64,000 nt of DNA from Solwaraspora sp. WMMD406 (GTDB lineage: Bacteria; Actinomycetota; Actinomycetes; Mycobacteriales; Micromonosporaceae): positions 3,658,001-3,722,000 of the forward strand of contig NZ_JARUBF010000001.1 in the NCBI RefSeq assembly GCF_029626025.1, in the 5' to 3' direction. The translations under genes and the position numbers were made by a program. The notes beneath the pieces are model-generated. The model had not been told where the DNA came from and did no database searches. It worked only from the letters and a program-made list of their open reading frames with translations. Positions 43,903 to 63,987 of this stretch are shown here, piece by piece. Position 1 is the first letter of the stretch, and every line of letters begins with the position of its first letter.

Positions 43903-44172
43903 AGCCGGCCGCCTCTCCCACCCGAATGCTTCGACGGTGCCGTCGCCTGCTCGAACCGCCGCTGCCTGTACACGCTGTCACCGGTCGACTGTCGCCAGCG
44001 GACCGGACGCCATCTTATGGCGCTACCAGCGGATGAAGAAACCGCGTCCGGTGGGCTGTGGACAACGGAGGCGCCGAGGGCCGACGACAGCGACGCTTCT
44101 TCATGTATCCGCAGGTCGTCGCCACCGAACCGGGCGATCGAATTGACCATGATCGGCGGATGCGAACCTGCG

Positions 44173-45592: not shown

Positions 45593-48500
45593 ATGAGTAC
45601 TGCACTCGACATGCGTGACCTGGTGATCGCCTACGACGCATGTGGCGAGATCGAGCCAAGTCCCCGGATCGCCAGCGCAGCCCGCCGAGGCGGCGGGATC
45701 GGTGTGCTCGACCTGGCCGGCGGGGGTGCTCGGACGCTGCGGGCCCTCGAACAACTCGCCTCCTGGTCCACCGAGCCGATAGCCGTCCGGGTGCCGGCCA
45801 GATGTCTGGCCACGATCGACGACGTCGAACGGGCAGCCGCCGGACGCATCGACCTGGTCGTGGTCACCGGCGAACTGCCCTGGTCACTCCCGGACCTGGT
45901 CACCCGCTACCGGGTGCTCGCCGAGGTCACCAGCATCGCCGCCGCCCGTACGGCGGTCGCGGCGGGCGTGCACGGCCTGATCGCCCGGGGGTCGGAGTCA
46001 GGCGGCGAGGTCGGCGAACTCAGCACGTTCGTCCTGCTGCAGCAGCTGACGGCGGCTGACGACATCGAGGTGCCCGTCTGGGCCGCCGGCGGCATCGGCC
46101 CGTACACCGCCGCCGCCTGCGTCATGGGCGGCGCCGCCGGTGTCGTGCTGGACAACCAACTGGCCCTGATGCCCGAGTCCGACCTGCCCGCCGACGTACA
46201 GGCCCTCTTCCGGCGGATGGACGGATCAGAGAGTGTCCTGACCGACGGATACCGTGGCGTACCCCGGAAGATGCGACCCGGCGCACCCACCAACCCGAGC
46301 CGGGCCGACCTGATCCCCATCGGACAGGACGGATGGCTCGCCGCCGAATTCGCCCGCCGGTTCTCCGACACCGCCGCCGCGGTACGTGGCCTGCGCGCGT
46401 CTATCGTGGACGCCGTCACCGACACTGAGTCGGCCACCGCCGTCGGGCCCGGCGCACCCCTGGCCGCCAGTCTCGGCCTGCGGGTCCCGATCGCCCAGGG
46501 ACCGATGACCCGGGTCAGCGACGAACCCGGGTTCGCCGCCGCCGTCGCCGCCGACGGCGCGTTGCCGTTCATCGCGCTCGCGCTGGCCACCGCCGAGCGC
46601 ACCGAGGAGATGCTCACCGAGACCGCCGCGCGGCTCGGCGATCGACCCTGGGGCGTTGGCGTTCTCGGCTTCGCCCCCGACGAGATCCGTACGGCCCAGA
46701 TCGACGTGATCCGCCGGATCCGGCCCAGTTGCGCGATCATCGCCGGTGGCCGCCCCGCCCAGGCCAAGGAACTCGAACGGGAAGGGATCACCACCTTCCT
46801 GCATGTGCCGTCGCCCGGACTGCTCCGGCAGTTCCTGCGCTCCGGGGCCCGCCGCTTCATCTTCGAAGGCTCCGAGTGCGGCGGTCACGTGGGCCCGCGC
46901 GCCAGCTTCCCCCTGTGGGAGGCGCAGCTCGCCGTACTCGACGAGCATCTCGCCACCGCGTCGCCGCAACAGGCAGCCGAGGTGCAGGTCTTCTTCGCCG
47001 GCGGCATCCACGACGACCGGTCGGCCGCCATGATCGCGGCCCTGACCGCTCCGCTCACCCGTCGTGGTGTGCAGGTGGGCGTCCTGATGGGCACGGCCTA
47101 CCTGTTCACCCGCGAGGCCGTCGCCCATGGAGCGATCCAGCCGGCGTTCGCCCAGATGGCACGGCAGGCCACCCGGACCGCCCTGCTGGAGACCGCCCCG
47201 GGACACGCCACCCGATGTCTGCACAGCACCTTCGTCGACGACTTCCACGCCCTGCGGACCGAGCTGGAGTCCGCCGGCGTCGAGAACCGCCAGGTGTGGG
47301 AGCACCTCGAACTGCTCAACGTGGGCCGACTGCGTATCGCGAGCAAGGGCAAACGTCGAGACGGCGACGCCCTGGTCGACGTCGACGAACCGACCCAGCT
47401 CACCGACGGACTGTTCATGGCCGGGCAGGTCGCGGTGCTGCGCGACAGCGAGACGACCGTCTCCGAGCTCCATGCCACGGTGACCGAGCAGGCGGTGCGC
47501 TACCACGCCGGCCGGGCCGAGACGTTGCGCGCCGCGTTGACGCCGCCGCCCCCGCAGACCGACGCCGCGCCGCTGGACATCGCCATCGTCGGCATGGCCT
47601 GCATGCTGCCCAACTCGCCCGACCTCGCGGCGTTCTGGCGGACCGTACTGGACAGCGACGACGCGATCACCGAGGTGCCGGCGGACCGCTGGGACACCAG
47701 CATCTACTACGCCCCCGAGGTCGGGCCCGGAGAAGCCGGCCGGATCAGCGTCTCCAAGTGGGGCGGCTTCCTGGCCGAGGTGCCGTTCGACGCCATCGGG
47801 TACGGCATCCCGCCGGCGGCCCTGGCCAGCATCGACCCCACCCAGCTGCTGGCCCTGGAGGTGTCCCAGCGCGCCCTGGCCGACGCCGGCTACACCGCGG
47901 GTGGCGGCGGGGTCGACCACTCGCGTACCGGGGTGGTGTTCGGCGCCGAGGCCGGCAGCGACATGGGTCACGCCCAGACGCTGCGAACCATGCTGCCGGC
48001 CTACCTGCCGGAGATCCCGGGTGAACTGGCCGAGCAGCTGCCGACCGTCACCGAGGACTCCTTCCCCGGCGTGCTCGCCAACGTCATCGCCGGCCGGGTC
48101 GCCAACCGCCTCGACCTCGGTGGCCCCAACTACACCGTCGACGCGGCCTGCGCCTCGTCGCTGGCCGCAATGGACGCGGCCTGCAAGGAACTCGCCAGCG
48201 GTGGCAGCGACCTGATGATCTGCGGCGGGGCCGACCTGCACAACGGCATCAACGACTTCCTCATGTTCACCTCGGCGCACGCGCTGTCGCCGACCGGCCG
48301 GTGCCGTTCGTTCGACAGCACCGGTGACGGCATCGCGCTCGGCGAGGGCGTCGCCGCCGTCGTACTCAAGCGGCTCTCCGACGCCGAACGCGACGGCGAC
48401 CGGATCTACGCCGTGATCAAGGGTCTCGGCGGGTCCAGCGACGGCCGGGCCCTCGGCCTGACCGCGCCCCGGGCCGAGGGGCAGCGTCGGGCCCTGGACC

Positions 48501-51500
48501 GGGCGTACCAGCAGGCCGGCATCTCCCCGGCCCAGGTCGGTCTGGTGGAGGCGCACGGCACCGGCACCGTCGTCGGCGACCGGACCGAGCTGGAGACGTT
48601 GACCCGGATGTTCACCGACGCCGGCGCCACCGCCGGCAGCTGCGGCCTCGGCTCGGTGAAGTCCCAGATCGGCCACACCAAGTGCGTCGCCGGTCTGGCC
48701 GGCGTGATCAAAACCGCGCTGGCCCTGCACACCGGGATCAAGCCGCCGACCCTGCACCTCACCCGCCCCAATCCCGCCTGGCACCCGGAGCAGAGCCCGT
48801 TCGCGTTCTACTCCGAAGCCCGGCCCTGGGTCGCCCCCGCCGCCGAGCGGATCGCCGGGGTGAGTGCCTTCGGGTTCGGTGGGACCAACTTCCACGTCGT
48901 GCTGAGCGCGTACGCCAACGCGCCGGAGCCCCGGCACGCCCGCGACGACTGGCCGGCGGAGCTGTTCTGCTTCCGCGCCGGCGACCGGTCCGGGGCGTAC
49001 CAGGCGATCCGGTCGCTGCTGGGCACCATCGACACCCGCGACTCGCTGGGTCGGCCCTGGCGGTTGCGCGACCTCGCGGCCGCGCAGTCGCGCGAGACCG
49101 AGAACCGGGGTGGACAGGTGCAGGTCGCCGTCGTCGCGGCGGATCTCGACGAACTGGCCACGCTCCTACGGCGGGCGCTCGACGGCGACCACGATCCGGC
49201 GCGCGGTCTTTACCAGCCCGCTTCCGCCGCAAATCTCGACGGCAAGGTGGCCTTCCTCTTCCCGGGCCAGGGCAGCCAGCGTCCGGGGGCGCTCGCCGAA
49301 CTGTTCGTCAGCTTCCCCGAACTGCGGCGGTTCCTCGACATCGGCCGTGACTACGCCGAGCGACTGTTCCCGCCGACCGCCTTCGACCCCGGGCTCGACC
49401 GCGAACAGCAGGAGCGGGTCCGGGACACCCGGATCGCCCAGCCCGTCCTGGGCATCGGTGGACTGGCCGTGCATCACCTGCTGGGCCGGGTCAACGTCCG
49501 TCCCGACCTGGCCGGCGGGCACAGCTACGGCGAACTGGTCGCGCTCAGCGTGGCCGGCGCCTTCGACGACCGGACCCTGCTGAACCTGAGCCGGGAACGC
49601 GCCGACGCGATCCTCTCCGCCGCCGGCACCGATCCGGGCACGATGGCGGCGGTCGCCGGTACGGCCGAGGAGATCTCGGTGGCACTCGGTGCCGCCGGAC
49701 TCGCCGATGAGGTCGTGCTGGCCAACCACAACGGTCCGAAGCAGGTGGTCATCTCCGGTTCGACGGCATCGGTGCAGCGGGCGGTGAGCGCGCTGAAGGA
49801 GCGTGGGCTGACCGCCCGGCCGATCCCCGTCGCGTGCGCGTTCCACAGCCCGGTCGTCGCTGGCGGGGTGGAGACGTTCCGCGGCGTGCTGCGCGACCAA
49901 CCGGTCGCGGTGCCGGCCTTCCCGGTTTGGTCCAACCGCACCGCCGCGCCGTACCCCACCGGCCCGGAGCAGATCCGCGACGAACTCGCCGCGCAGATCG
50001 GCGCGCCGGTGCGGTTCGTCGAGCAGATCGAGTCGATGTACGCCGCCGGGGCCCGGATCTTCGTCGAGGCCGGACCGGGCCAGGTGCTGAGCCGGCTGGT
50101 CGACGCGGTGCTCGGTGACCGCCCGCACCTGGCGGTCGCCTGCGACGCGCCCCGCTCCGGCGGCCTCCGCGGCTTCCTGTCCGCCCTCGCCGAACTGGCC
50201 TGCGCCGGCGTTCCGGTCCAGACCAGCTGGCTCTACCACGGCCGGCGCATCGCGCCGGTGACGCCGGCGGCTTCGACCTCCCGGCCCATCTGGACGGTCG
50301 ACGGACAGCTCGTCCGCGACCAGCATGGCCGCCCGCTGCCCGGCGGCATGACGCCTCCCCGACGAATCAAGGAGCTGTCGATGAGTACATCCACCGACAT
50401 GGGCAATGGGAACGGCAACGACGCCAGCTACGAATACGGAAACGTCCTCGACGTCAGCAACGGACACGGCAACGGCAACGGAGCTGTCGCCGGCAACGGC
50501 AACGGTGCTCTCGTCCCGAACGGCATCGGCAATGGAAACGGCTCGGGCAACGGGCACGCGCCCGCTCCCCGCGACGGTCGGGAGGACCTGGTCAGTGAAT
50601 TCCTGCGGACCAGTCGGGACCTGATCGCCTCGCAGCGCGACGTCATGCTCGCCTACTTCGGTGAACGGCCGGCGCTCACCAACGGGTGGTCCGCGCCGGA
50701 GCCGTACCAGTCGACGACGGCCGTCCAGCCGGCTGTCGCGGCGCGAACCGCGATCTCGCCCCCGGAGGCCGCCCGGCCCGCCCCGGCCGCGCTGACCGCC
50801 GCCGCGCCGCCTGCGGTGGCCCCACCGGCCCCGGCCGCGCCGGCTGCGGCGCCGGTGTCAGCGGCCCCCGCCGCACCGCCGGCACCGGTCGCGGTGGTGG
50901 CCGCTCCGGTGCCGGTCGCCGCGCCTGCTCCGGCTGCGGTGCCCGCCGCTGCGGTCGCTGTCGCGGCTGCTCCGGCTCCGGTCGCGCCCGCGCCGGTTGC
51001 TGTCGCGGCTGCTTCGGCTGCTTCGGGGGTGGGTGTGGTGCAGTTCCAGGAGGCGATCCTGGCGGTGTTGAGTGAGCGTACGGGTTATCCGGTGGATCTG
51101 ATCGAGTTGGATTTGGATCTTGAGGCTGATCTGAGTATCGATTCGATCAAGCGGGCTGAGGTCGCTGGTGAGGTGGCGACGCGGTTGCGGTTGTCGGTGG
51201 ATGGTGACGAGTCGGAGTTGGAGGATCTGGTCAAGGCGCGGACGGTGCGGACGATGGTGTCCTGGCTGACCGACCGGATGGCCGCCGATTCTCCGGCTGC
51301 GGTCGCTGTCGCGGCTGCTCCGGCTCCGGTCGCGCCCGCGCCGGTTGCTGTCGCGGCTGCTTCGGCTGCTTCGGGGGTGGGTGTGGTGCAGTTCCAGGAG
51401 GCGATCCTGGCGGTGTTGAGTGAGCGTACGGGTTATCCGGTGGATCTGATCGAGTTGGATTTGGATCTTGAGGCTGATCTGAGTATCGATTCGATCAAGC

Positions 51501-53590
51501 GGGCTGAGGTCGCTGGTGAGGTGGCGACGCGGTTGCGGTTGTCGGTGGATGGTGACGAGTCGGAGTTGGAGGATCTGGTCAAGGCGCGGACGGTGCGGAC
51601 GATGGTGTCCTGGCTGACCGACCGGATGGCCGCCGATTCTCCGGCTGCGGTCGCTGTCGCGGCTGCTCCGGCTCCGGTCGCGCCCGCGCCGGTTGCTGTC
51701 GCGGCTGCTTCGGCTGCTTCGGGGGTGGGTGTGGTGCAGTTCCAGGAGGCGATCCTGGCGGTGTTGAGTGAGCGTACGGGTTATCCGGTGGATCTGATCG
51801 AGTTGGATTTGGATCTTGAGGCTGATCTGAGTATCGATTCGATCAAGCGGGCTGAGGTCGCTGGTGAGGTGGCGACGCGGTTGCGGTTGTCGGTGGATGG
51901 TGACGAGTCGGAGTTGGAGGATCTGGTCAAGGCGCGGACGGTGCGGACGATGGTGTCCTGGCTGACCGACCGGATGGCCGCCGATTCTCCGGCTGCGGTC
52001 GCGCCACCCGTACCGGCACCGGCGGCGGCGCCCGCCGCTGCGGTAGCTCCGTCACCCGCGCCCGTCGCCCCGGTGGCCACCGCACCAGTGGCCACCGCCC
52101 CGGCCGTCGACAGCCAGGACACGACATCCGCCGGTCTCGGCATCGCCCCGCGACGACTGGTCGCCCAAGAGGTTCCCGGTGGCGGTGCGGTCGTCGCGCC
52201 GGCTGCGCTGTCCGGCACCCGGTTCCTGATCACCGGTGGAGCTCCGGTACTCGGACCGCTGGCGGAGCAGCTCGGCTCGTACGGCGCGGCGGGACGGACC
52301 GGCTCGATCCACGAGGACGACCCCGACCAGTTCGCCGGCTACGACGGCGTGGTCATCCTCGACGGGCTCAGCCCGGGTGGCGGCCCGCTGCTGCCCGGAC
52401 TCTTCCCCTTCATCAAGAAGGCGCTGGCCAGCGGAGTCCGGTGGCTGGTGGCCGCCGGCACCGCCGGACCACGCAGCGACGGGATGGCCGGCCTGTTCCG
52501 TACCATCAGCCGTGAGTACCCGCAGGTGTCGGTGAGCTACGTGGAGGCACCGGCGGACGCCGAAGCCGCCGCGCTCGCGACCGGGCTCGTCACCGAACTG
52601 CTGTCCGGTGGACAGACCCCGGTCGTCACCTGGACCGCACAGGGCCGTACGGCGTTCGACCTGGCCGCCGTCGGTCTCGGTCCGCTGGCGGCCGGCGGTG
52701 CCGGCCCGGCCGGGGACGGCGTCGCGGAGGCCCAGGCGATCGGTCTCGACCAGGACTCGGTCGTGGTCATGTTCGGTGGCGCGCGCGGAATCACCCCCTG
52801 GTTCGCCCGCGCTCTGGCGGCCGCGAGCCGATGCCGGATCGAACTGGTCGGGCGAACCCCGCTGCCGGACGGAGCCGAGTCACCGACACTGGCCGCGGCG
52901 GCGGACAAGCCGGCGCTGCGGGCCGCCCTGATCGCACAGGGAATGCGCTCCCCGGCGGAGATCGACCGGCTGGCCAACCAGATCCTGGCCGCCCGTGAGG
53001 TCCGGGCCACCCTCGACGAACTGCGCGAACTCGGCAGCCAGGTGCGTTATCACAGCGTAGACGTCAGCGACGAGACCGCGACCCGGCAGCTGCTCAAGGA
53101 GATCCACGGTGAGTTCCGCCGGATCGACGGCGTGGTCTACGCCGCCGGCCGGATCGAGGACAAGCTGATCGCCGAGAAGGACCCGGAGTCGTTCAGCCGG
53201 GTCTACCAGACGAAGGTCCTGGGCGGCACCACCGTACTCGACGCGATCCGCGACGTCGCTCCGCTGCGCTTCGTGGTCCTGTTCGGCAGCATCGCCGCCG
53301 CGTACGGCAACCGGGGACAGAGCGACTACGCCGCCGCCAACGACGCGTTGGACCGGATCGGCGGGCGGTGGGCGGCCGACAGCGGGGTTCGCTGCCTGAC
53401 GGTGCATTGGGGGCCCTGGGCGCCGGGCAGCGTCCACGGTGGCATGGTCAGCGCCGAGCTGAGCCGGGAGTACGCGCGGCGCGGCATCGAGCTGATCGAC
53501 CCAGAGGAAGGCGCGCTCAGCCTGCTGCGGGAGCTCGCCTGGGGTGACCCGGCGGTCACCTCGGTCGTCTACACCGCCTCGGGCTGGTGA
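45593..53590 (+). CDS. PUFA-synthase-like polyketide synthase 1: PfaD-like ER, KS, AT, three ACP, KR
   Basis: A 2665-residue multidomain enzyme. N-terminal ~1-230 and ~285-620 both look like FMN TIM-barrel (nitronate monooxygenase/PfaD) halves: first SESGGEVG with AAGGIGPYTAAACV, second PIAQGPMTRVSDEPGFA, GSECGGHVGPR and FFAGGIHDDRSA. Then KS ~660-1105 (active Cys853 in DAACASS; HGTGT, IGHTKC), AT ~1219-1530 (GHSYGE, Ser1311), three ACPs with pantetheine Ser at 1851, 1967 and 2083 (DSIKRAE), and a PfaA-type KR ~2385-2600 (VVMFGGARGITPW; Ser2566, Tyr2579). It should build an acyl chain iteratively from malonyl units, with reduction steps. GGGAG 5 bases before ATG 45593. It overlaps PKS2 by 4 bases. 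Confidence 0.9.
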   Translation: MSTALDMRDLVIAYDACGEIEPSPRIASAARRGGGIGVLDLAGGGARTLRALEQLASWSTEPIAVRVPARCLATIDDVERAAAGRIDLVVVTGELPWSLPDLVTRYRVLAEVTSIAAARTAVAAGVHGLIARGSESGGEVGELSTFVLLQQLTAADDIEVPVWAAGGIGPYTAAACVMGGAAGVVLDNQLALMPESDLPADVQALFRRMDGSESVLTDGYRGVPRKMRPGAPTNPSRADLIPIGQDGWLAAEFARRFSDTAAAVRGLRASIVDAVTDTESATAVGPGAPLAASLGLRVPIAQGPMTRVSDEPGFAAAVAADGALPFIALALATAERTEEMLTETAARLGDRPWGVGVLGFAPDEIRTAQIDVIRRIRPSCAIIAGGRPAQAKELEREGITTFLHVPSPGLLRQFLRSGARRFIFEGSECGGHVGPRASFPLWEAQLAVLDEHLATASPQQAAEVQVFFAGGIHDDRSAAMIAALTAPLTRRGVQVGVLMGTAYLFTREAVAHGAIQPAFAQMARQATRTALLETAPGHATRCLHSTFVDDFHALRTELESAGVENRQVWEHLELLNVGRLRIASKGKRRDGDALVDVDEPTQLTDGLFMAGQVAVLRDSETTVSELHATVTEQAVRYHAGRAETLRAALTPPPPQTDAAPLDIAIVGMACMLPNSPDLAAFWRTVLDSDDAITEVPADRWDTSIYYAPEVGPGEAGRISVSKWGGFLAEVPFDAIGYGIPPAALASIDPTQLLALEVSQRALADAGYTAGGGGVDHSRTGVVFGAEAGSDMGHAQTLRTMLPAYLPEIPGELAEQLPTVTEDSFPGVLANVIAGRVANRLDLGGPNYTVDAACASSLAAMDAACKELASGGSDLMICGGADLHNGINDFLMFTSAHALSPTGRCRSFDSTGDGIALGEGVAAVVLKRLSDAERDGDRIYAVIKGLGGSSDGRALGLTAPRAEGQRRALDRAYQQAGISPAQVGLVEAHGTGTVVGDRTELETLTRMFTDAGATAGSCGLGSVKSQIGHTKCVAGLAGVIKTALALHTGIKPPTLHLTRPNPAWHPEQSPFAFYSEARPWVAPAAERIAGVSAFGFGGTNFHVVLSAYANAPEPRHARDDWPAELFCFRAGDRSGAYQAIRSLLGTIDTRDSLGRPWRLRDLAAAQSRETENRGGQVQVAVVAADLDELATLLRRALDGDHDPARGLYQPASAANLDGKVAFLFPGQGSQRPGALAELFVSFPELRRFLDIGRDYAERLFPPTAFDPGLDREQQERVRDTRIAQPVLGIGGLAVHHLLGRVNVRPDLAGGHSYGELVALSVAGAFDDRTLLNLSRERADAILSAAGTDPGTMAAVAGTAEEISVALGAAGLADEVVLANHNGPKQVVISGSTASVQRAVSALKERGLTARPIPVACAFHSPVVAGGVETFRGVLRDQPVAVPAFPVWSNRTAAPYPTGPEQIRDELAAQIGAPVRFVEQIESMYAAGARIFVEAGPGQVLSRLVDAVLGDRPHLAVACDAPRSGGLRGFLSALAELACAGVPVQTSWLYHGRRIAPVTPAASTSRPIWTVDGQLVRDQHGRPLPGGMTPPRRIKELSMSTSTDMGNGNGNDASYEYGNVLDVSNGHGNGNGAVAGNGNGALVPNGIGNGNGSGNGHAPAPRDGREDLVSEFLRTSRDLIASQRDVMLAYFGERPALTNGWSAPEPYQSTTAVQPAVAARTAISPPEAARPAPAALTAAAPPAVAPPAPAAPAAAPVSAAPAAPPAPVAVVAAPVPVAAPAPAAVPAAAVAVAAAPAPVAPAPVAVAAASAASGVGVVQFQEAILAVLSERTGYPVDLIELDLDLEADLSIDSIKRAEVAGEVATRLRLSVDGDESELEDLVKARTVRTMVSWLTDRMAADSPAAVAVAAAPAPVAPAPVAVAAASAASGVGVVQFQEAILAVLSERTGYPVDLIELDLDLEADLSIDSIKRAEVAGEVATRLRLSVDGDESELEDLVKARTVRTMVSWLTDRMAADSPAAVAVAAAPAPVAPAPVAVAAASAASGVGVVQFQEAILAVLSERTGYPVDLIELDLDLEADLSIDSIKRAEVAGEVATRLRLSVDGDESELEDLVKARTVRTMVSWLTDRMAADSPAAVAPPVPAPAAAPAAAVAPSPAPVAPVATAPVATAPAVDSQDTTSAGLGIAPRRLVAQEVPGGGAVVAPAALSGTRFLITGGAPVLGPLAEQLGSYGAAGRTGSIHEDDPDQFAGYDGVVILDGLSPGGGPLLPGLFPFIKKALASGVRWLVAAGTAGPRSDGMAGLFRTISREYPQVSVSYVEAPADAEAAALATGLVTELLSGGQTPVVTWTAQGRTAFDLAAVGLGPLAAGGAGPAGDGVAEAQAIGLDQDSVVVMFGGARGITPWFARALAAASRCRIELVGRTPLPDGAESPTLAAAADKPALRAALIAQGMRSPAEIDRLANQILAAREVRATLDELRELGSQVRYHSVDVSDETATRQLLKEIHGEFRRIDGVVYAAGRIEDKLIAEKDPESFSRVYQTKVLGGTTVLDAIRDVAPLRFVVLFGSIAAAYGNRGQSDYAAANDALDRIGGRWAADSGVRCLTVHWGPWAPGSVHGGMVSAELSREYARRGIELIDPEEGALSLLRELAWGDPAVTSVVYTASGW
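50381..50383 (+). promoter_or_regulatory. internal ribosome site and start codon in PKS1
   Basis: AAGGAG (50369-50374) lies 6 bases before ATG 50381, in the PKS1 frame at residue 1597, between AT and the ACPs. The codons that follow (MSTSTDM) resemble the start of PKS1 itself (MSTALDM). This could be a leftover of a gene fusion, or an internal start making a shorter ACP-KR protein. Confidence 0.5.
50948..52002. repeat. three tandem, apparently identical 348-bp ACP repeats
   Basis: The 348-bp unit starts at 50948, 51296 and 51644 and encodes linker plus ACP (116 residues). By eye the three copies are identical to the base. Their codon use (many GAT, TTG, GTT, CTT) is much less GC-biased than the rest of the gene. 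Confidence 0.9.
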
Positions 53591-56500
53591 GCATGAGCAC
53601 CGATCCCCGCGAGACGATCGCCATCGTCGGGATGGCCGCTCTCCTGCCGGGCGCGCCTGACCTGGACGCCTACTGGCGCAATCTGGTCGACGGCGTCGAC
53701 GCGATCACCGACGTGCCGCCGCACCGGTGGGACGAGGAGTTCTACGATCCCGACCAGGCGCACCGGCCGGACCGGCTCTACTGCCGGCGCGGCGGCTTCG
53801 TCGACGACCACGCCACCTTCGAGCCGCTGCGGTTCGGCATCATGCCGACCTCGATCGGCGACATCGAACCCGACCAGCTGATCACGTTGCAGGTCGCCGC
53901 CGCGGCCATCGACGACGCCGGCGGCCAGGACCGGCTGCCGGACCGGGACCGGATCGGTGTCCTGCTCGGCCGGGGTGGCATCCTCAGCCCGGCCCAGGCC
54001 CGGTACGCCCAGCGGGTCCGGATGTCGAGTCAGGTCATCGGCATCCTCAAGGAGCTGATCCCGGACCTGCCGCCGGAGAGCCTGGACCGGGTCCGGCGCA
54101 AGTTCGACGAACGACTCGGCCCGCAGCAGCCCGAGGGCACCATCGGCCTGGTGCCCAACCTGGCCGCGTCGCGGGTGGCGAACCGGCTCAACCTGCGCGG
54201 CCCGTCGTACACGATCGACGCCGCGTGCGCGTCGTCGCTGATCGCCGTCGACCAGGGGATGACCGAACTGCGTGCCGGCCGGCTGGACGCGGTGCTGGCC
54301 GGCGGCGTCCACCATGTCCACGACATCAGCTTCTGGTCGGTGTTCAGCCAACTGCGGGCGCTGTCGCGCCAGGGCGAGATCCGCCCGTTCGACAGCTCCG
54401 CCGACGGGCTGCTGATCGGTGAGGGCACCGGGATCGTGGTGCTCAAGCGGCTGTCGGACGCGCTCGACGCCGGCGACCGGGTCTATGCCGTGATCCGGGG
54501 CAGCGGGGTCTCCAGTGACGGCCGTTCGGCCAGCATGTTCAACCCGGCGAGCAGCGGACAGTCGCTGGCGATCAGGCGGGCGTGGCAGTCCGCCGGCCTC
54601 GACCCGACCGACCCGGACGCGGTGGGTCTGCTGGAGGCGCACGGCACCGGCACCCCGACCGGGGACGCCGCCGAGCTGGTCACCGTCGCCGACGTCTTCG
54701 GCTCGTACCGGGGTGGTCCCCGGCCGGTGATCGGCTCGGTGAAGTCGATGATCGGGCACACGATGCCGGCGGCCGGGATCGCCGGGCTGATCAAGGCGAC
54801 GCTCGCCGTTCACCGTGGGGTGCTGCCCCCGACGCTGCACTGCGGTGAACCGCGTGCGGAGATGGCCGCGACCCGATTCGCGCCGATCGCCGCCGCACAA
54901 CCGTGGGAGGGTGACGGACCGCGCCGCGCCGGCGTCAACGCGTTCGGCTTCGGCGGCATCAACGCCCACCTGATCATCGAGGAGCCGTCGGCGAGCGTCG
55001 CCGCTTGGTCCGCCGGTCCGGTACCGTCGCCGGCCGCCGCCCCGGCGAACCCGACCGCCGCCGGTGCCACCGGTCCGACGGTCGCTCCGGCGACCGTGGA
55101 CGAACCGGAGCTGGTGCTGTGGCTGGCCGCCGAGCAGCCGGCCGGGCTCGCCGCGCTGCTGGACCGTGACGACGCGGCGGTACGCGAGACCGGGCTGGCC
55201 TTCGCCCGGGACGCCCGTGCCGTCGAGGCTCCGGCCTGCCGCCTGGGCGTGGTGAATCCCACCGACAAGCGGCTGGCCACCGCCCGCCGGGCGGTCGAGC
55301 GGGGTGATCCGTGGCGGGGCGCCCGCGACATCTGGTTCACCTCTCGGCCGCTGCTCGGACCGAACGGCGGCGGCAAGCTGGCGTTCGTGTTCCCCGGACT
55401 GGAGGCCGAGTTCACTCCCCGTACCACTGATCTGGCCGCCCACTTCGGCCTGGCGGACCGGGAATGGTCCGCCGCCGACCTGGGCCGGCACGGGGCCGGG
55501 CTGATCGAGGTGGGCCGGTTCCTCAACGACGTGCTCGCCCGGATCGGCGTACGGCCGGATCTGGTCGGCGGGCACTCCATCGGTGAATGGGCGGCCGCCG
55601 CGGCGACCGGCCAGGTCAGCACCACCGACATGGACGGCTTCCTGAAGCTGTTCGACGCGGACTCGGTCGCGGTGTCCGGCTACGTCTTCGCGGCGATCGG
55701 TGCCGGTGCCGAGCAGGTGACGCCGCTGCTCGCCGACTGCCCGGGCGTGGTCCTGTCGCACGACAACGCGCCGGCGCAGTCGGTGGTCAACGGGCCGGAG
55801 AGCCAGGTCGACCTGCTGGTCGACGAACTACGTCGGCGCAACGTCCTGTGTCAGAAGCTGCCGTTCCGGTCGGCGTTCCACACCCCGATCTTCGCCGAGG
55901 GGCTGCGGTCGATCGGCGCGGCGCTGCAGTCCTGGAAGGTGCACCCGACATCGGTGCCGGTGTGGTCGGCGACGCTGGCCGCGCCGTTCCCGACCGACGA
56001 GGAGCAGGTCAACGAGATCTTCGTCCGGCACATGATGGAACCGGTCTGGTTCCGGCAGACCGTCGCGGCCATGTACGCGGCGGGCACGCGGGCATATCTC
56101 CAGGTGGGTGCGGGTCAGCTCGCGTCACTGATCAGTGACAACCTGCGGGGCAAGGACCACCTCGCCATGCCGGTCAACGTCGGCCACCGTACCGGCCTCG
56201 ACCAGTTGCGCCGGGTGGCGACCGCGTTGTGGGTCGAGGGCGCGGCCCCGGACCTCGCGGCCCTGTCGCCGCGTCCGCCGGTGGCCAGCGTGGCGCCGGC
56301 CGCGCCAGCGTCGAACGGCTCGAACGGCGCGAAGCCGGCCGGCGGATCGGCCACCGCGAGTGGCTCCTCGTCCGGTGGTTCCTCGTCCGGTGGCGGTGCG
56401 TCCAGCGCGCCCCGGCGGGGGCCGAGTATCCGGCTGGACCTCGGCGGACCGTTGGTACGGCTGGGTCCGGGGGCGAGCGAACTTCTGGGACTCGGCAGCC

Positions 56501-58545
56501 GGCCGGCGGCACCAGCCGCCCCGTCGCCCGGGGAACCGACCCGACCGACGGCACCCGCCGTACCAGCCGCGCCCACCGCACAGGCGGTGCCGGCCGCGAC
56601 CGCGCCGGCACGACCGGCGGACCCGGTTGAACCGGCGGATCCGTCGCCGGCCGGCAACGGCACCACGACCCAGAATCCGGGCGCTCTGACGGCGTTGCAT
56701 CAGTTGGCCGGACGGTCCAAGGCGGCCGCCGAACTCGCCGCGCTGCTGCGTGACGCCGCCGATGGCGCGGTCAGCGTGCTGGACGCCGCCACCCGACCCG
56801 GCGCGTCGGGCGCTCCAGCCGCCGCGCCGCCGGCTGCCACGCCGCCCGCCGCCGCGCCGGCTCCCGCGCCGCCCGCCGCCGCGCCGGCTGCCACGCCGCC
56901 CGCCGCCGCGCCGGCTGCCACGCCGCCCGCCGCCGCGCCGGCTCCCGCGCCGCCGACTCCGGCTCCGGTGGCGCGGCCGAGTCTGCCGGTCCGTACGGAG
57001 ATCGCCCGCAACATCCTGCGGGTCTCCGTCGACACCATGCCCTACCTGCGGGACCACTGTTTCTTCGTCCAGCCCGACGACTGGCCGCACGCCGAGGACC
57101 GCTGGCCGGTGGTACCGGCCACCACGGTCGTGTACCACATGATGGACGCGGTCGCCCAAGCCGTACCGGGGATGCGGGTGGTAGGGGTGCGCGACGCCCG
57201 GTTCAACCGGTGGACGATCGCCGCGCCCGGTCAGGACGTGGAAATCAGCGTCAAGGTGGCCGGTCCGGACCAGTACGCGGTCACCTTCGGCAGCTACGCC
57301 CGGGCGACCGTCGAGGTGGCCGCCGTCTACCCGGCACCGGTCGAGCCGCCGTGGACCCACGACCCCGCCACCGAGAAGCCGCCGAGGATCAGTGCCGAGG
57401 AGATGTACTCCGAGCGGCTCATGTTCCACGGGCCGCAGTTCCAGGGCGTGACCGCCGTACACGCCCTCGGCGAGATGCACGTCCGGGGTGTGGTGACGGC
57501 ACCGGTGCCCCCGGGAGCCCTGCTCGACAACGCGTTGCAGCTGATCGGCAACTGGCTCATCACCACGCAGCCGTTCCGTACCGTGGCCCTTCCAGTCGGC
57601 CTCAACCGGGTCCGGTTCTTCGGCCCGCCGCCAGCGCCCGGTACGGCGTTCGAATGCGTCGCCCGGGTCCGGTCCATCGACGACACGCAACTGGTGGCCG
57701 ACACCCAGCTGTTCATCGGCGACCGGGTCTGGGCGCAGATCGACGGCGCGGTCGACCGTCGGTTCGACAGCCACCCGCAGGCCAGGCCGGCGGAACGGTT
57801 CCCGGAGCGCCACCCGATGTCGCTGCGGCAGCCCGAAGGCTGGACGGTGGTATTCGACGCCTGGACCGACCTGGTGACCCTGTCGATGGCGTCGCGCGGC
57901 ATCCTCGGTACGGCGGCGTTCGCCGACTACGAGCGTCAGCCGGCGAAGACCCGTAAGCAGTGGTTGCTCGGCCGGATCGCGGCCAAGGACGCGGTGCGGT
58001 TCCGGCAGTGGGAGGCCGGGCACACCGACGTCTACCCGATCGAGTTGACCATCGCGAACGATCCGAATGGCCGTCCCCGGGTGGATCTGCGGCCCGGCCG
58101 GGGACTGCAGGAATGCGACCTGTCGCTGGCGCACAGTGCCGAGATCGCGGTCGCGATTGCCGGGCCGGCGCGACCCCGCCCGGACGCGCCCGGCGTCGGC
58201 ATCGACGTCGTCGAACTCGTCGAGCGGCCGGAGAGCACCCTGCGGTACGCGCTGTCCGACCCGGAGTTGGCCCTGCTCGACCGGATCGCCACTGCCAGCG
58301 GCACCGACCGGCAGTACTGGTTCGCCCGGTTCTGGGCGGCCAAGGAAGCGGCAGGTAAGGCCGAGGGGACCGGGTTGGACAACGCTCCGAGGCGGCTACG
58401 GGTCACCGCCGTGGACGGCGACACGCTGATGGTCGCGGTCGCCGGACGGACCTACCGGGTTGTCTGCCGTGAGATTGAGAACCCGGCTGATCTGCCGCCC
58501 CGGCGGTACGTCGTGGGCTGGACCCACGGCCCAGAAGGCCACTGA
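53587..58545 (+). CDS. PUFA-synthase-like polyketide synthase 2: KS, AT-like, DH, Sfp-type PPTase
   Basis: A 1652-residue enzyme. KS ~8-465 (Cys214 in DAACASS, EAHGTGT, IGHTMPA). An AT-like domain ~597-890 has GHSIGEW (Ser664) and FRSAFHTP, but reads FPGLEAEF where AT domains have GQGSQ, so its activity is uncertain. A Pro/Ala-rich linker with 27-bp DNA repeats (~1075-1125; 56815-56960) follows, then a hotdog DH (~1130-1400; His1157 in YLRDHCFF, Asp1314 in LLDNALQ), and a C-terminal Sfp-type phosphopantetheinyl transferase (GVGIDVVEL ~1537, WAAKEAAGK ~1583) that should activate the ACPs. No ACP is present in this protein, so it must use those of PKS1 or the discrete ACP. Start GTG 53587 overlaps the PKS1 stop; ATG 53593 is possible. 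Confidence 0.88.
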   Translation: MSMSTDPRETIAIVGMAALLPGAPDLDAYWRNLVDGVDAITDVPPHRWDEEFYDPDQAHRPDRLYCRRGGFVDDHATFEPLRFGIMPTSIGDIEPDQLITLQVAAAAIDDAGGQDRLPDRDRIGVLLGRGGILSPAQARYAQRVRMSSQVIGILKELIPDLPPESLDRVRRKFDERLGPQQPEGTIGLVPNLAASRVANRLNLRGPSYTIDAACASSLIAVDQGMTELRAGRLDAVLAGGVHHVHDISFWSVFSQLRALSRQGEIRPFDSSADGLLIGEGTGIVVLKRLSDALDAGDRVYAVIRGSGVSSDGRSASMFNPASSGQSLAIRRAWQSAGLDPTDPDAVGLLEAHGTGTPTGDAAELVTVADVFGSYRGGPRPVIGSVKSMIGHTMPAAGIAGLIKATLAVHRGVLPPTLHCGEPRAEMAATRFAPIAAAQPWEGDGPRRAGVNAFGFGGINAHLIIEEPSASVAAWSAGPVPSPAAAPANPTAAGATGPTVAPATVDEPELVLWLAAEQPAGLAALLDRDDAAVRETGLAFARDARAVEAPACRLGVVNPTDKRLATARRAVERGDPWRGARDIWFTSRPLLGPNGGGKLAFVFPGLEAEFTPRTTDLAAHFGLADREWSAADLGRHGAGLIEVGRFLNDVLARIGVRPDLVGGHSIGEWAAAAATGQVSTTDMDGFLKLFDADSVAVSGYVFAAIGAGAEQVTPLLADCPGVVLSHDNAPAQSVVNGPESQVDLLVDELRRRNVLCQKLPFRSAFHTPIFAEGLRSIGAALQSWKVHPTSVPVWSATLAAPFPTDEEQVNEIFVRHMMEPVWFRQTVAAMYAAGTRAYLQVGAGQLASLISDNLRGKDHLAMPVNVGHRTGLDQLRRVATALWVEGAAPDLAALSPRPPVASVAPAAPASNGSNGAKPAGGSATASGSSSGGSSSGGGASSAPRRGPSIRLDLGGPLVRLGPGASELLGLGSRPAAPAAPSPGEPTRPTAPAVPAAPTAQAVPAATAPARPADPVEPADPSPAGNGTTTQNPGALTALHQLAGRSKAAAELAALLRDAADGAVSVLDAATRPGASGAPAAAPPAATPPAAAPAPAPPAAAPAATPPAAAPAATPPAAAPAPAPPTPAPVARPSLPVRTEIARNILRVSVDTMPYLRDHCFFVQPDDWPHAEDRWPVVPATTVVYHMMDAVAQAVPGMRVVGVRDARFNRWTIAAPGQDVEISVKVAGPDQYAVTFGSYARATVEVAAVYPAPVEPPWTHDPATEKPPRISAEEMYSERLMFHGPQFQGVTAVHALGEMHVRGVVTAPVPPGALLDNALQLIGNWLITTQPFRTVALPVGLNRVRFFGPPPAPGTAFECVARVRSIDDTQLVADTQLFIGDRVWAQIDGAVDRRFDSHPQARPAERFPERHPMSLRQPEGWTVVFDAWTDLVTLSMASRGILGTAAFADYERQPAKTRKQWLLGRIAAKDAVRFRQWEAGHTDVYPIELTIANDPNGRPRVDLRPGRGLQECDLSLAHSAEIAVAIAGPARPRPDAPGVGIDVVELVERPESTLRYALSDPELALLDRIATASGTDRQYWFARFWAAKEAAGKAEGTGLDNAPRRLRVTAVDGDTLMVAVAGRTYRVVCREIENPADLPPRRYVVGWTHGPEGH
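56815..56960. repeat. 27-bp tandem repeats in PKS2 linker
   Basis: About five near-identical 27-bp units encode ATPPAAAPA/PAPPAAAPA, a Pro/Ala linker between the AT-like and DH domains. Confidence 0.8.
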
Positions 58546-58592
58546 CCGTACGCCGATTCCGACAGCACACCGCCACGACAAGGAGAACACCC

Positions 58593-58922
58593 ATGCCCGC
58601 GGACCACGACACCATCCTGGCGGAAATCTCCCAGATGCTCCGCGCGGTGCTCGCCGGGGTCGAGCCCGAGGACGAGATCACCCGCGACACCAGCTTCCGC
58701 GACGACCTCGAGATGGAAAGCATCGACGTGATCGCTCTCGCCGGCCGGCTGCAGGCACGGTACGGCGACGCGGTCAACTTCGCGCAGTACGTCGCGTCGC
58801 TCGACATGGATTCGGTACGGGCGCTGCGGGTCGGTGAGCTGGTCGACCACATCTCGGCCGAGCTCGACAAGAACCCGTCGCCGACGGCGGCCGCGGTGCC
58901 GGCGCAGGTGGCCGGCCAGTGA
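58593..58922 (+). CDS. discrete acyl carrier protein
   Basis: A 109-residue ACP with the pantetheine-attachment motif DDLEMESIDVIAL (Ser in ESID), helices typical of the fold and an Ala/Pro-rich C-terminal tail. AAGGAG lies 7 bases before ATG 58593. It starts 47 bp after PKS2, and its stop overlaps the hydrolase start by 4 bases. It probably receives the finished chain or a late intermediate from the synthase, or carries it to the sulfotransferase and hydrolase that follow. Confidence 0.9.
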   Translation: MPADHDTILAEISQMLRAVLAGVEPEDEITRDTSFRDDLEMESIDVIALAGRLQARYGDAVNFAQYVASLDMDSVRALRVGELVDHISAELDKNPSPTAAAVPAQVAGQ

Positions 58923-59878
58923 CCATGGTCCGGGCCAACGGCCTGGTGATGCACGTCCAGCAGCTGCCCCCGGCCGCTGGGGGCACCTCGGCCGCTGGCG
59001 GCACCGCCCGGCCCGGTCCGTCGGCCGGCACGGGCGCGCCGCCCGGGACCGGCACGGGGGTAGTGGACGCGGCGGCGAGCGACGGTACCGCCGAACCGTC
59101 GGCGCCGTCGGTCACCGCAGTGCCGACGGCCGTGCTGATCCACGGCATCGGCTCGGACAATCTGGCGAGCTGGTACCTCAGCCTCGCCCATCCGCTGACC
59201 GCCGCCGGGTTCCGGGTCGTCATGTACGACCTGCGTGGGCACGGCCGCACCGAGCGCCCGCCCACCGGCTACCGAGTCGACGACCTCGTCGACGACCTCG
59301 CCGCGCTCCTCGACCAGCTCGGGGTACGGGAACCGGTGCACCTGCTGGGCAATTCGCTCGGCGGCACGATCGCGTTCAGCTTCGCCGCCCGGCAACCGGC
59401 GCGGGTGGCCTCCATCGTCGCGGTCGAGGCGGCCCCGCCCACCGCCGACTGGCTGGCCCGGGTCGGTCGGCAGCTCGCTCGGGCCGCCGCACCGGCCACG
59501 GCCGACGACGACACGGCCCTGGTCTCTCAGCGGGGCGAGCGGGGTGCGCGGTACGCGGCAGCCGTACGGCAGCTGCTCGCCACCACCACCGCCGGTCGGG
59601 ACCTGCCCGCCAGCACGGCGCTCGGCCCGGCTGACCTGAGCGCTGTCGGCTGTCCGGTGCTCGGCGTGTTCGGCAGCGACTCGGCGGCGATCGATCTCGC
59701 CCCGGTGGTGGCCGAACTGCTGCCGCAAACCCGGCTCGTGGTGGTACCGGGGCATCGGCACGCGGTCCTGGTCACTGCCCGCGACCAGGTACGGGAACTG
59801 GTGCTGCCCTGGCTCGCCCAGCGGGTCACCAGCGGCGACGCACCAGTAGCGACTGGCTCACCGGCCCTGCGTCGCTGA
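58919..59878 (+). CDS. alpha/beta hydrolase, thioesterase-like
   Basis: A 319-residue alpha/beta hydrolase: oxyanion/strand-3 VLIHGIGSDNLASWYL, VMYDLRGHGRTERP, nucleophile elbow LLGNSLGGTIAFS, an acid near VFGSDSAAIDL, and histidine in VPGHRHAVLV, so a Ser-Asp-His triad is plausible. Residues ~17-55 form a low-complexity Gly/Ala/Thr/Pro insert between the first two strands, unlike family members. Coupling (GTGA) with the ACP suggests that it releases the chain from that carrier. A C-C bond hydrolase or esterase is an alternative role. Confidence 0.85.
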   Translation: MTMVRANGLVMHVQQLPPAAGGTSAAGGTARPGPSAGTGAPPGTGTGVVDAAASDGTAEPSAPSVTAVPTAVLIHGIGSDNLASWYLSLAHPLTAAGFRVVMYDLRGHGRTERPPTGYRVDDLVDDLAALLDQLGVREPVHLLGNSLGGTIAFSFAARQPARVASIVAVEAAPPTADWLARVGRQLARAAAPATADDDTALVSQRGERGARYAAAVRQLLATTTAGRDLPASTALGPADLSAVGCPVLGVFGSDSAAIDLAPVVAELLPQTRLVVVPGHRHAVLVTARDQVRELVLPWLAQRVTSGDAPVATGSPALRR

Positions 59879-60006
59879 ACCAGCTCGACAACCAGGCGGT
59901 GAACCAGCTCGACATGAGGCGTGAACCGCTCGACACCAGGCGTCAACCGCTCGACACCAGGCGTCAACCGCTCGACATGAGGCGTGAACCGCTCGACACC
60001 AGGAGG
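59875..60006. repeat. six tandem ~21-bp repeats ahead of the sulfotransferase
   Basis: Six copies of a 21-24-bp unit (TCAACCGCTCGACACCAGGCG type) run from the hydrolase stop to the sulfotransferase ribosome site; the last unit ends in AGGAGG. An in-frame ATG at 59914 opens a 35-residue (REPLDTR)n frame that ends at 60021, overlapping the ATG of the sulfotransferase. Confidence 0.9.
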
Positions 60007-60013
60007 TTTCCCC

Positions 60014-60976
60014 ATGAGTAGTGCTGCACCCGGACGGGCGATCATCATCAGCAGTGGCCGGTGCGGGTCCACGCTGCTGTCCGACCTGATCGTCGCCGAA
60101 CCGGAGACGCTGTCGGTCCAGGAGTTCTTCATGGCTACGCCGGCCTGGGCGAAATCCGGCACGGAGATCACCGGGGAGGCGTACTGGGCGGTGCTCAGCA
60201 GCCCGAAGCCGGAGCTCAGCACCTTGTTCACCATCGGCCTGCCGCCCAAGGAGGTGCGCTATCCCAGCGACGGCCGCTGGTCGGGGGCGCTGGCTGAGCT
60301 GCCTCAGCTGCTGGCGATCACGCTGCCCAAGCTGACCGACGACCCCGACGCGCTGTTCGACGAGCTCGCCGACCAGGTTCCGGCGTTCCCGGTGCAGTCG
60401 TTCGCCGCGCACCACCGGATGTTCCTGGATCTGCTCACCAGGCTGACCGGTAAGCGCCGGTGGGTGGAGCGCTCCGGCGGTTCGAGCCAGATCGCGCCGT
60501 ACCTGTTGCGGTCCTTCGGCGACACCAAGATCGTGTATCTGACCCGGAACTGGCCGGACACCGCGCGGTCGATGAGCCGGCACCCGTCGTTCCAGCTCAT
60601 CCAGCTGCGCCTGGAGTTCGTCTCTCGATGCGGCATCGATCCGTTCCAGATGACCCCGGACCAGAAGGTGCCGGCGGAGCTGGAGCACCTGCTGCCGGAC
60701 CGGATCACCGCCGATCTACTGCGTGAACGCGGCGAGGACAGCAAGCGTTACCTGGGCCTGTGCGCCTTCATGAGCGCCCAGGCCGAACAGGCGCTGGTCG
60801 ACAACCCGCCGGCCCAACTGCTCACGATGCGCTACGAGGACCTGGTCGCCGATCCGGTGCCGGAACTGAACCGCCTCGGTGAGTTCCTCGACTTCGCTGA
60901 TCCGGACGACTGGGCGCGGCAGGTCGCCGGCCAGGTGAGCCGGGGCGGTGCGGTGCGCCAACCAGCTGTCGCCTGA
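60014..60976 (+). CDS. sulfotransferase (Stf0-like, PAPS-dependent)
   Basis: A 320-residue cytosolic sulfotransferase. IIISSGRCGSTLLSDLI (residues ~10-26) is the 5'-phosphosulfate-binding loop; WVERSGGSSQIAPYLLRSF, then KIVYLTRNWPDTARSMSRHPS, is the 3'-phosphate-binding region, and YEDLVADPVPELNRLGEFLDF closes the family pattern. It should transfer sulfate from PAPS to a hydroxyl; the acceptor is probably the beta-hydroxyl of the ACP-bound chain or another lipid hydroxyl. AGGAGG 8 bases before ATG 60014 comes from the last tandem repeat. It is the fifth gene of the operon. Confidence 0.86.
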   Translation: MSSAAPGRAIIISSGRCGSTLLSDLIVAEPETLSVQEFFMATPAWAKSGTEITGEAYWAVLSSPKPELSTLFTIGLPPKEVRYPSDGRWSGALAELPQLLAITLPKLTDDPDALFDELADQVPAFPVQSFAAHHRMFLDLLTRLTGKRRWVERSGGSSQIAPYLLRSFGDTKIVYLTRNWPDTARSMSRHPSFQLIQLRLEFVSRCGIDPFQMTPDQKVPAELEHLLPDRITADLLRERGEDSKRYLGLCAFMSAQAEQALVDNPPAQLLTMRYEDLVADPVPELNRLGEFLDFADPDDWARQVAGQVSRGGAVRQPAVA

Positions 60977-62919: not shown

Positions 62920-63987
62920 ATGGCACGGTACCGGCACCGGCTGGTGGCTCCTGTCCTGATGGGCGCGCTTGTCGCGCTGATCGCGGGCTGCACCTCGGTG
63001 CCGGACCGGGCGTCGCCGTCGTCGCCGTCGTCGCCGTCGGTATCGCCGGAATCGTCCGCGCCGGACGACTCCGGCGACACCGGCGATGACGGTCGACCGG
63101 ATACCGGCGACCCGGCCGGCCGGCCGGCCGACCTGCCGCCGGCCGGCTCGTCGGAGCAGACGATCACCGTCGACGGCTACGAGCGGACCTTCCGTCTCTA
63201 CCGGCCCGGTGGTCTGGCCGAGGACACCCCGGCACCGTTGCTCGTCATGCTGCACGGTGTGCTCGGCACCGGCCAGCAGGCCGAGTCGTGGTACGGCTGG
63301 AACGCGGTCGCCGACCGGGAGGGGTTCGTGGTCGCCTACCCGGACGCGCGCAACCGCGCCTGGGCGGTGACCGACGAGTGCTGCGGCGCGTCTGCCCGGG
63401 ACGGGATCGACGACGCCGGGTTCGTCCTGGCCGTGGTGGAATCCCTGCGGCAGCGGATGACCCTCGACCCGGACCGGCTCTACCTGTCGGGGATCTCCAA
63501 CGGCGGAATGCTCGCCTACAAGCTGGTCTGCGAATCCTCGGTGTTCGCGGCGGTGGCGGTGGTGGCCACGACCATGCTCACCGACTGCTCGGCCGCCGTA
63601 CCGATCTCCGTCCTACACATTCACGGCACCGCTGACGACACGATCCCCTACACCGGCGGTACGGGCCGGCGGGAGGGCGCGTCCCGGGGCCGGGTGCCGG
63701 ACACGGTCGACGGCCCGCCGGTGCCGGATCTGGTCCGCCGATGGCAGCGGATCGACGACTGCGCTCCGGCCCAGACCCGTACCGAGGCGACGGTGACCAC
63801 GTCGACCGCCTCCTGCCCGGGTGGCCGCGACGTCACGCTGATCACCATCGACGGCGCCGGCCACCAGTGGCCCGGTTCGTCGCCCGGCGCGGCCAGCCGG
63901 CTGCTCGGGCTGGATCCGCCCGCGACCGAAATCGACGCCACCACCACCAGTTGGAATTTCCTCGCCGCCCACGCCAAGCCGGCGTGA
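62920..63987 (+). CDS. PHB-depolymerase/feruloyl-esterase-like lipoprotein (LpqC type)
   Basis: A 355-residue lipoprotein esterase: lipobox LIAGC (Cys23), a Ser/Pro/Asp-rich linker, then an alpha/beta hydrolase of the PHB depolymerase/esterase LpqC family: LLVMLHGVLGTGQQAES (oxyanion), YLSGISNGGMLAYKL (nucleophile Ser), HIHGTADDTIPY (Asp) and IDGAGHQWPGS (His). Substrates in the family are short polyesters or hydroxycinnamate esters. It lies 28 bp after the propeller-like gene. It may act on an ester of the operon product at the cell surface, but this is inference. The next 13 bases contain no further feature. Confidence 0.86.
   Translation: MARYRHRLVAPVLMGALVALIAGCTSVPDRASPSSPSSPSVSPESSAPDDSGDTGDDGRPDTGDPAGRPADLPPAGSSEQTITVDGYERTFRLYRPGGLAEDTPAPLLVMLHGVLGTGQQAESWYGWNAVADREGFVVAYPDARNRAWAVTDECCGASARDGIDDAGFVLAVVESLRQRMTLDPDRLYLSGISNGGMLAYKLVCESSVFAAVAVVATTMLTDCSAAVPISVLHIHGTADDTIPYTGGTGRREGASRGRVPDTVDGPPVPDLVRRWQRIDDCAPAQTRTEATVTTSTASCPGGRDVTLITIDGAGHQWPGSSPGAASRLLGLDPPATEIDATTTSWNFLAAHAKPA

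Follow-up and report, generated by a model that had tools for sequence, protein, structure and literature searches.

What lipid, if any, is made by an iterative synthase that has a sulfotransferase gene next to it, and does the sulfotransferase belong to the synthase at all? The question is raised by a locus of Solwaraspora sp. WMMD406, which we studied within a stretch of 64,000 nucleotides (contig NZ_JARUBF010000001.1, positions 3,658,001 to 3,722,000; hereafter the window) of its 7.16-Mb genome, with a GC content of 71%. Five adjoining genes at 45593-60976, all on the plus strand, encode two polyketide synthase (PKS) polypeptides, an acyl carrier protein (ACP), an alpha/beta hydrolase and a sulfotransferase (ST). 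An earlier reading made from the letters of the DNA (the sequence-only reading) had counted, in five adjacent genes, an enoyl reductase, two ketosynthases (KS), two acyltransferases (AT), three plus one ACP, a ketoreductase (KR), a dehydratase (DH) and a phosphopantetheinyl transferase (PPTase). Open reading frames (ORF) and Pfam/NCBIfam agree with this count: PKS1 matches KS, AT, PP-binding, KR and NMO, PKS2 matches KS, AT, PS-DH and ACPS, and the three smaller proteins match PP-binding, Abhydrolase_1 and Sulfotransfer_3. We find that the ST is a constant part of the locus in Micromonosporaceae and that a glycosyltransferase (GT) takes its place elsewhere. On balance, we lean toward an iterative secondary-lipid synthase of the Type M kind, joined to a head-group module for sulfation. 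The five genes are as follows.

45593..53590, plus strand: PKS1, 2665 aa, with a pseudo-enoyl reductase (pseudo-ER), an enoyl reductase (ER), KS, AT, three ACP and KR (ORF, translation, Pfam, NCBIfam)
53587..58545, plus strand: PKS2, 1652 aa, with KS, AT-like, DH and PPTase (ORF, Pfam; alternative start ATG 53593)
58593..58922, plus strand: free ACP (PP-binding; Ser in 90/90 members)
58919..59878, plus strand: alpha/beta hydrolase, probable releasing enzyme (Abhydrolase_1)
60014..60976, plus strand: ST, a sulfotransferase of the type using 3'-phosphoadenosine-5'-phosphosulfate (PAPS) (Sulfotransfer_3, Pfam; PAPS-site Arg/Ser and Glu-Arg in 33/33)

We scanned contigs with the DH-PPTase part of PKS2, the nearest relatives in this profile scan being Micromonosporaceae such as Micromonospora chokoriensis. 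The best 80 of 197 relatives, one Streptomyces plasmid, nine further relatives and the window gave 91 loci, whose genes were predicted by a codon-based caller. The synthase core is constant: PKS1 lies directly upstream of PKS2 in 83/91 loci (in 7 no gene is present upstream, and in 1 a small predicted gene intervenes), PKS2 is followed by the ACP in 90/91, and the hydrolase is present in 89/91. What comes next depends on the lineage. In 33 of the 34 Micromonosporaceae loci (24 placed by taxonomy, 9 by kinship, and the window), the ST comes next behind synthase, ACP and hydrolase, and the remaining locus (L047) ends at PKS2. In 55 of the 57 other loci a GT family gene stands in its place; of the two without a readable GT, one ends after the ACP (L096) and the other has only a short fragment (L095). 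ST and GT occur together in none of the 91 loci, within the stretches covered. The gene right after the GT belongs to a methyltransferase family in 34 loci, to an ATP-binding cassette (ABC) family in 7 and to an unassigned family in 7, the methyltransferase family being present in 36 loci overall. The Pfam searches covered a single GT (EryCIII/UDPGT-like), a single methyltransferase, one unassigned protein (no match) and two ABC proteins. This replacement of ST by GT, or the reverse, after a constant synthase-ACP-hydrolase core is a new observation.

Linkage between synthase and ST was quantified in sampled genomes. Among 150 genomes of the family, the synthase (DH-PPTase) profile matched in 28 and the ST profile in 25 (E <1e-60). 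All 25 ST genomes are within the 28, with the two matches on the identical contig and strand, the synthase upstream and 1067-1469 bp between them. Among 346 genomes of the phylum, the ST was found in 2 (E <1e-40), both in the family, and the synthase in 7 (E <1e-60). A dedicated sulfotransferase, to which the sequence-only reading had drawn attention, is a fixed part of the Micromonosporaceae version and not a one-genome oddity, as seen in 33/34 loci and 25/25 linked genomes. Chance adjacency of ST and synthase was considered separately and is ruled out by the 25/25 linkage. Since homologues of seven window genes, from PKS1 through a secreted esterase downstream of the ST, are in identical order in 9/9 relatives fetched, the grouping of these genes is not due to chance either.

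A plasmid search with PKS2 returned 14 records, two of which, from Streptomyces, cover at least 80% of PKS2, with a Type P KS among the partial matches. One GT-type core (L011, NZ_CP108492.1, Streptomyces) is carried by a linear plasmid of 869 kb, for which mobilizability is predicted; IS transposase genes lie a few kb further downstream.

What the core can do depends on its domains, which are arranged as follows.

45593..46447, plus strand: N-terminal FabK/NMO-like TIM barrel (pseudo-ER), with GGEVG and without the catalytic His (TIGR03151, 5e-14; model)
46460..47497, plus strand: FabK/NMO-type ER with a GGHVG motif (TIGR03151, 1e-24)
47576..48760, plus strand: KS1, Cys-His-His intact (Pfam; 75/75 rows with residue)
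49253..50110, plus strand: AT1, malonyl-type, with GHSYG, malonyl-site Gln and Arg, and AFH (Pfam; alignment columns)
50948..52002, plus strand: three ACP units, a 348-bp tandem repeat of 3.0 copies with 100% match (repeat finder; DSIKR three times)
52760..53422, plus strand: KR, K-S-Y-N present (Pfam; Tyr in 79/80 rows with residue)
53611..54984, plus strand: KS2, Cys-His-His intact, not a chain-length factor (CLF) (Pfam; 84/84 rows with residue)
55522..56112, plus strand: AT2, Ser and His kept, malonyl-site Gln and Arg lost (Pfam; alignment columns)
57034..57786, plus strand: DH of PKS type (PS-DH), His and Asp invariant (Pfam; 91/91 rows)
57844..58521, plus strand: PPTase domain, with its left boundary set approximately (ACPS match in Pfam at 58192-58455; motif counts)

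Active-site motifs were found for both KS, both AT, the three ACP, KR, DH and PPTase, and they are invariant or nearly so wherever the residue is aligned. The alignments hold 81 PKS1 and 91 PKS2 rows, many of which end at contig or locus borders, and counts refer to rows with the residue. What is read directly from the sequence is the order of the genes, their domains, the conservation of active sites, the linkage and the exchange of ST and GT. In AT2, the His is present in 86/86 rows and the Ser in 85/86, with no conserved Arg in the seven columns examined; the position of the AT1 malonyl-site Gln is mostly Arg or His, the alignment of AT1 and AT2 around this site being uncertain by a few residues. 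PfaB, described in PMC12895367 as a terminal acyltransferase, likewise lacks the malonyl-site Gln and Arg, but AT2 keeps GHSxG, unlike bacterial PfaB.

The three ACP units of the window are identical at the DNA level, which suggests a recent duplication or gene conversion. The repeat was called at 90-99% match in 7/16 relatives, the repeat finder making no call in the other 9, and the repeats look homogenised. PKS1 of the ST type mostly has 2 or 3 ACP (20/28), and that of the GT type mostly 1 (40/46), by a simple motif count on 75 PKS1 sequences no shorter than 1500 aa, partial sequences included.

Is this a synthase of polyunsaturated fatty acids (PUFA)? The locus would then make polyunsaturated membrane fatty acids and the ST would be unrelated to it. 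PKS1 reaches 982 bits against the NCBIfam PfaA model, just below its cut-off of 1010, and it combines KS, malonyl-type AT, tandem ACP and KR in one protein, as Pfa proteins do. Pfa synthases (Types A and B, and Type L of S. coelicolor) are likewise iterative, with KS-AT-ACPn-KR, a second KS/AT/DH protein, an ER and a PPTase. The domain order bears out the view that two polypeptides form an iterative lipid/PKS system related to Pfa, with the ER N-terminal in the first and the PPTase C-terminal in the second. The stronger claim of the sequence-only reading, that this is the enzyme set of Pfa-type PUFA synthases, fails on three features. A family-model search found no PfaD-family ER in the operon, where a tandem FabK-type ER is present instead; PKS2 has a single PS-DH by Pfam in place of two FabA-type DH/isomerase domains; and it has one KS, with its Cys intact, in place of a KS-CLF pair. 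The extra free ACP, the hydrolase and the ST are a further difference from Pfa synthases. Canonical Pfa membership is ruled out on the three features.

These missing features are found elsewhere in the same genome. A canonical Pfa-type cluster lies on the same contig (C1) at 2258515-2280808, in the order thioesterase (TE)-KS-AT-ACP-KR-DH, followed by KS, a KS-like segment lacking the Cys motif of the active site (which we read as the putative CLF), AT and two FabA, and next by PfaD; it also encodes two acyl-CoA dehydrogenase-like proteins, a PPTase and an MFS protein. The one PfaD-family (TIGR02814) match of the genome, C1:2264457-2265764, is inside this cluster. Among nine relatives with the window-type operon, PfaD scored above the cut-off in 0/9, with weak matches below it in 6/9, and the operon therefore seems independent of PfaD. 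In a tree of 27 KS segments, KS1 of the window groups with its homologues (support 99), apart from the genome's own PfaA; branches are very long and the deeper order is unsafe. The tree separates KS1 only from this PfaA and from a Type P KS. With the FabA-type DH/isomerase, PfaD and CLF assigned to another cluster, PfaD above cut-off in none of the nine relatives, and the ST linked to the synthase in 25/25 genomes, a true PUFA synthase is a very improbable explanation.

The ER region, previously called PfaD-like, is of FabK/NMO type in both family matches and fold, the only TIGR02814 match of the genome being elsewhere. Its pieces match only the FabK family at E up to 0.01, and a structure search with an AlphaFold model of the region (pTM 0.90) placed FabK and NMO structures closest and PfaD at rank 46. 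Assignment to the PfaD family is ruled out by family models, fold ranking and the PfaD model matches in the genome and its relatives. The catalytic His of the GGH motif is present in 73/73 rows of the second barrel. At the corresponding column, the first barrel has Glu in the window, and the 81 rows have R in 47, a gap in 19, E in 7, P in 3, K in 2 and H in 2, with one row outside this tally. The first barrel is probably a structural partner of the second. Since the two ER domains of a thraustochytrid synthase form a heterodimer, whose structure was solved recently (PMC13311796), the tandem FabK pair may, by analogy, be a fused counterpart of it.

If not a Pfa synthase, what is it? Type M secondary-lipid synthases were described in Frankia, Actinosynnema, Renibacterium and S. 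avermitilis, their product being uncharacterised (PMC3098273; Shulse & Allen 2011). A 2026 paper (PMC13291983) describes pfaDA and pfaBC-PPTase fusions, likens them to the Renibacterium cluster, which it still calls uncharacterised; the compression into two polypeptides is not new, because these fusions have been described. The window has this fused arrangement, though its ER is FabK-type and not PfaD. Like Type M, it is actinobacterial and has a PPTase with P1a, x(G/D)xP, and P1b', hShxH, and without P0 (91/91, 90/91 and 1/91 rows, respectively), a combination common to Types M-T and not specific to M. We therefore regard the synthase as probably Type M-like. Heterocyst glycolipid (Hgl; hgl, Type F) synthases make a secondary lipid with a sugar head group, and the GT-type relatives here carry a GT; according to PMC3098273, Hgl has KS-CLF-AT and no DH/isomerase, whereas here a CLF is absent and a DH present. 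By word search, "sulfotransferase" is absent from the main texts of PMC3098273 and PMC13291983. The sequence-only reading had named a characterised cluster with the identical domain set and a known product as what would speak against it; among the matches listed by full-text searches of open-licence papers there was none, nor any paper on such a sulfotransferase cluster.

The start of the ST is placed at ATG 60014, and not at GTG 59984, by alignment and by an AGGAGG immediately upstream. The protein matches Sulfotransfer_3 and Sulfotransfer_1, with no further sulfotransferase family in the Pfam result. Arg/Ser are present in both the PAPS 5' and the 3' motif in 33/33 ST members, the roles of the individual residues being those we presume, and an adenosine-5'-phosphosulfate (APS) kinase for the supply of PAPS is encoded in the genome. 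In the hydrolase, the nucleophile is Ser in 87/89 loci (Cys in 2) and the His is present in 89/89. A 21-bp tandem repeat of about six copies (59876-60003) fills the gap between the hydrolase and ST genes.

The sequence-only reading had ended the operon at 60976, which was not borne out, since two secreted proteins and an ABC exporter continue downstream.

61029..62891, plus strand: secreted beta-propeller protein (no Pfam match; AlphaFold pTM 0.81, mean pLDDT 75; propeller matches)
62920..63987, plus strand: secreted esterase of the PHB-depolymerase family (NF050058 above cut-off; signal/lipobox read from sequence)

Solved relatives of the propeller protein are generic propellers only, with a TM-score (query length) of at most 0.37 among the 50 listed. 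Past the end of the window, genes for an ABC ATPase and for an ABC-2 permease continue in the direction of the operon; they are succeeded by an amidohydrolase gene on the opposite strand and by a COX1 gene. The propeller protein, the esterase and the ABC pair come after the ST in the window's genome and in 9/9 relatives. Where the ABC pair is present, it likely exports the lipid. The propeller-protein family has three tandem copies downstream of the ST in L032, L038 and L041, and two in other loci.

The simplest and best reading would be that the core yields a lipid with a free hydroxyl, which is sulfated here and glycosylated in sister lineages. In the scheme that we infer, as regards substrate, order of steps, chain structure, lipid sulfation and export, AT1 would load malonyl units onto the tandem ACPs, these having been activated by the built-in PPTase, and KS1/KS2, KR, DH and the FabK-type ER would make from them a long chain on which one or more hydroxyls remain. 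Lacking the malonate-binding pair, AT2 would transfer an acyl group, either the completed chain or the starter, with the free ACP as the probable donor or recipient; the hydrolase would then release the acyl chain and the ST place sulfate on a chain hydroxyl. In this genus and near relatives, the ABC-2 exporter and the two secreted proteins would probably export and handle the lipid. In Streptomyces and some other families, the core is followed by a GT, often with a methyltransferase, in place of the ST.

Several observations weigh against this reading. The PKS2 tree, with 84 rows (31 ST, 51 GT and 2 that carry no label), shows a single change between ST and GT; the switch is therefore one event following taxonomy and not many independent cases. 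A more distant synthase without this ST is present in 3/28 family genomes. The tie to export is weak: among 23 further taxonomically placed ST loci, 19 have the propeller protein, 16 the esterase and only 6 the ABC pair, although two of the 23 extend no more than two genes past the ST. For the hydrolase triad, the column expected to contain the acid is variable (D 46, E 30, A 6, R 3 and N 2 of 89). The PDB matches of the ST are weak, and both they and the profile match are restricted to a C-terminal stretch. The Type M assignment is based on motifs and a published description, and everything that bears on product, expression and enzyme activity comes from sequence. Finally, the acceptor of the ST could be a sugar or another molecule.

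Might the ST instead serve chain termination? In CurM/Ols systems, as here, a PAPS sulfotransferase is found beside an alpha/beta hydrolase in a PKS cluster. On a terminal-alkene route of this kind, the ST would sulfate an ACP-bound beta-hydroxyl and the hydrolase would free the acid, followed by decarboxylation and sulfate loss to a 1-alkene. ST and hydrolase genes do adjoin, and the hydrolase matches 3qit ("Polyketide synthase", which we take to be the CurM TE) at E 7e-9 among 57 mostly generic hydrolases. The ST profile weakly matches the CurM sulfotransferase (E 0.0057) and 4gox ("Polyketide synthase", presumably the Ols ST; E 0.065), but the glycopeptide sulfotransferases Teg14 and TEG12 outscore CurM. 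The absence of the exporter from most of the 23 loci also means that a polar product is not proven. An ST-TE fusion is a defining feature of CurM/Ols. Here, no such fusion is found behind an ACP on the PKS, ST and hydrolase being separate genes, and loci with a GT in place of the ST have the hydrolase and the free ACP just as regularly, so that the hydrolase is not a partner of the ST as such. Since the same ACP and hydrolase stand beside a GT in relatives, terminal desaturation is less likely, and we consider the alkene route improbable and a terminally desaturated product possible, but less likely than a sulfated one.

Somewhat less remote, though still doubtful, is that the ST does not act on the chain, the sulfate going instead to a head group, a sugar or another one, that is later esterified with the chain, as in mycobacterial sulfolipid-1. 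That lipid is an actinobacterial precedent (PMC4365757), the GT-type relatives suggest a polar and variable head-group position, and the secreted esterase-like protein could transfer acyl groups extracellularly. However, among the genes from PKS1 through the exporter we found neither a GT nor a separate acyltransferase, and the ST matches Sulfotransfer_3 and Sulfotransfer_1 with no other sulfotransferase family listed.

Sulfation of the chain hydroxyl being our preferred reading, which scaffold might be shared by the two lineages? Cycloviracin and fattiviracin are actinobacterial glycolipids with long trihydroxy fatty acids and glucose, methoxylated in cycloviracin (PMC4365757), structures that would fit a core followed by a GT and a methyltransferase, the link being a proposal only. 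Among the open-licence papers listed by our searches, none gave a gene cluster for either compound, and besides one review the names occurred only in reference lists. It is conceivable, if rather speculative, that the Type M core makes long polyhydroxy fatty acids of this kind, which Streptomyces-like lineages glycosylate and O-methylate, and that Micromonosporaceae convert the same scaffold to a new class of sulfated lipids.

If true, this exchange of head-group genes on a constant core would supply products for a synthase type that had none assigned in 2011. The sulfate-or-sugar switch points to sulfated bacterial lipids as a possible class, and it is cheap evidence on the product, since the acceptor group should suit both a sulfotransferase and a UDP-sugar-type transferase. 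In mass spectrometry, it predicts loss of SO3 in one lineage and of a methylated hexose in the other.

The surroundings of the operon add a few minor points. TPR and fn3 genes at 41164-45228, on the minus strand, are divergent from it; among the 91 loci, these families were seen only in the window and six loci of the same genus, and they were left outside the operon. A promoter/terminator scan gave nothing above shuffles. Further upstream, at 31213-34077 on the plus strand, the window encodes a GH48 cellulase with a CBM2 domain.

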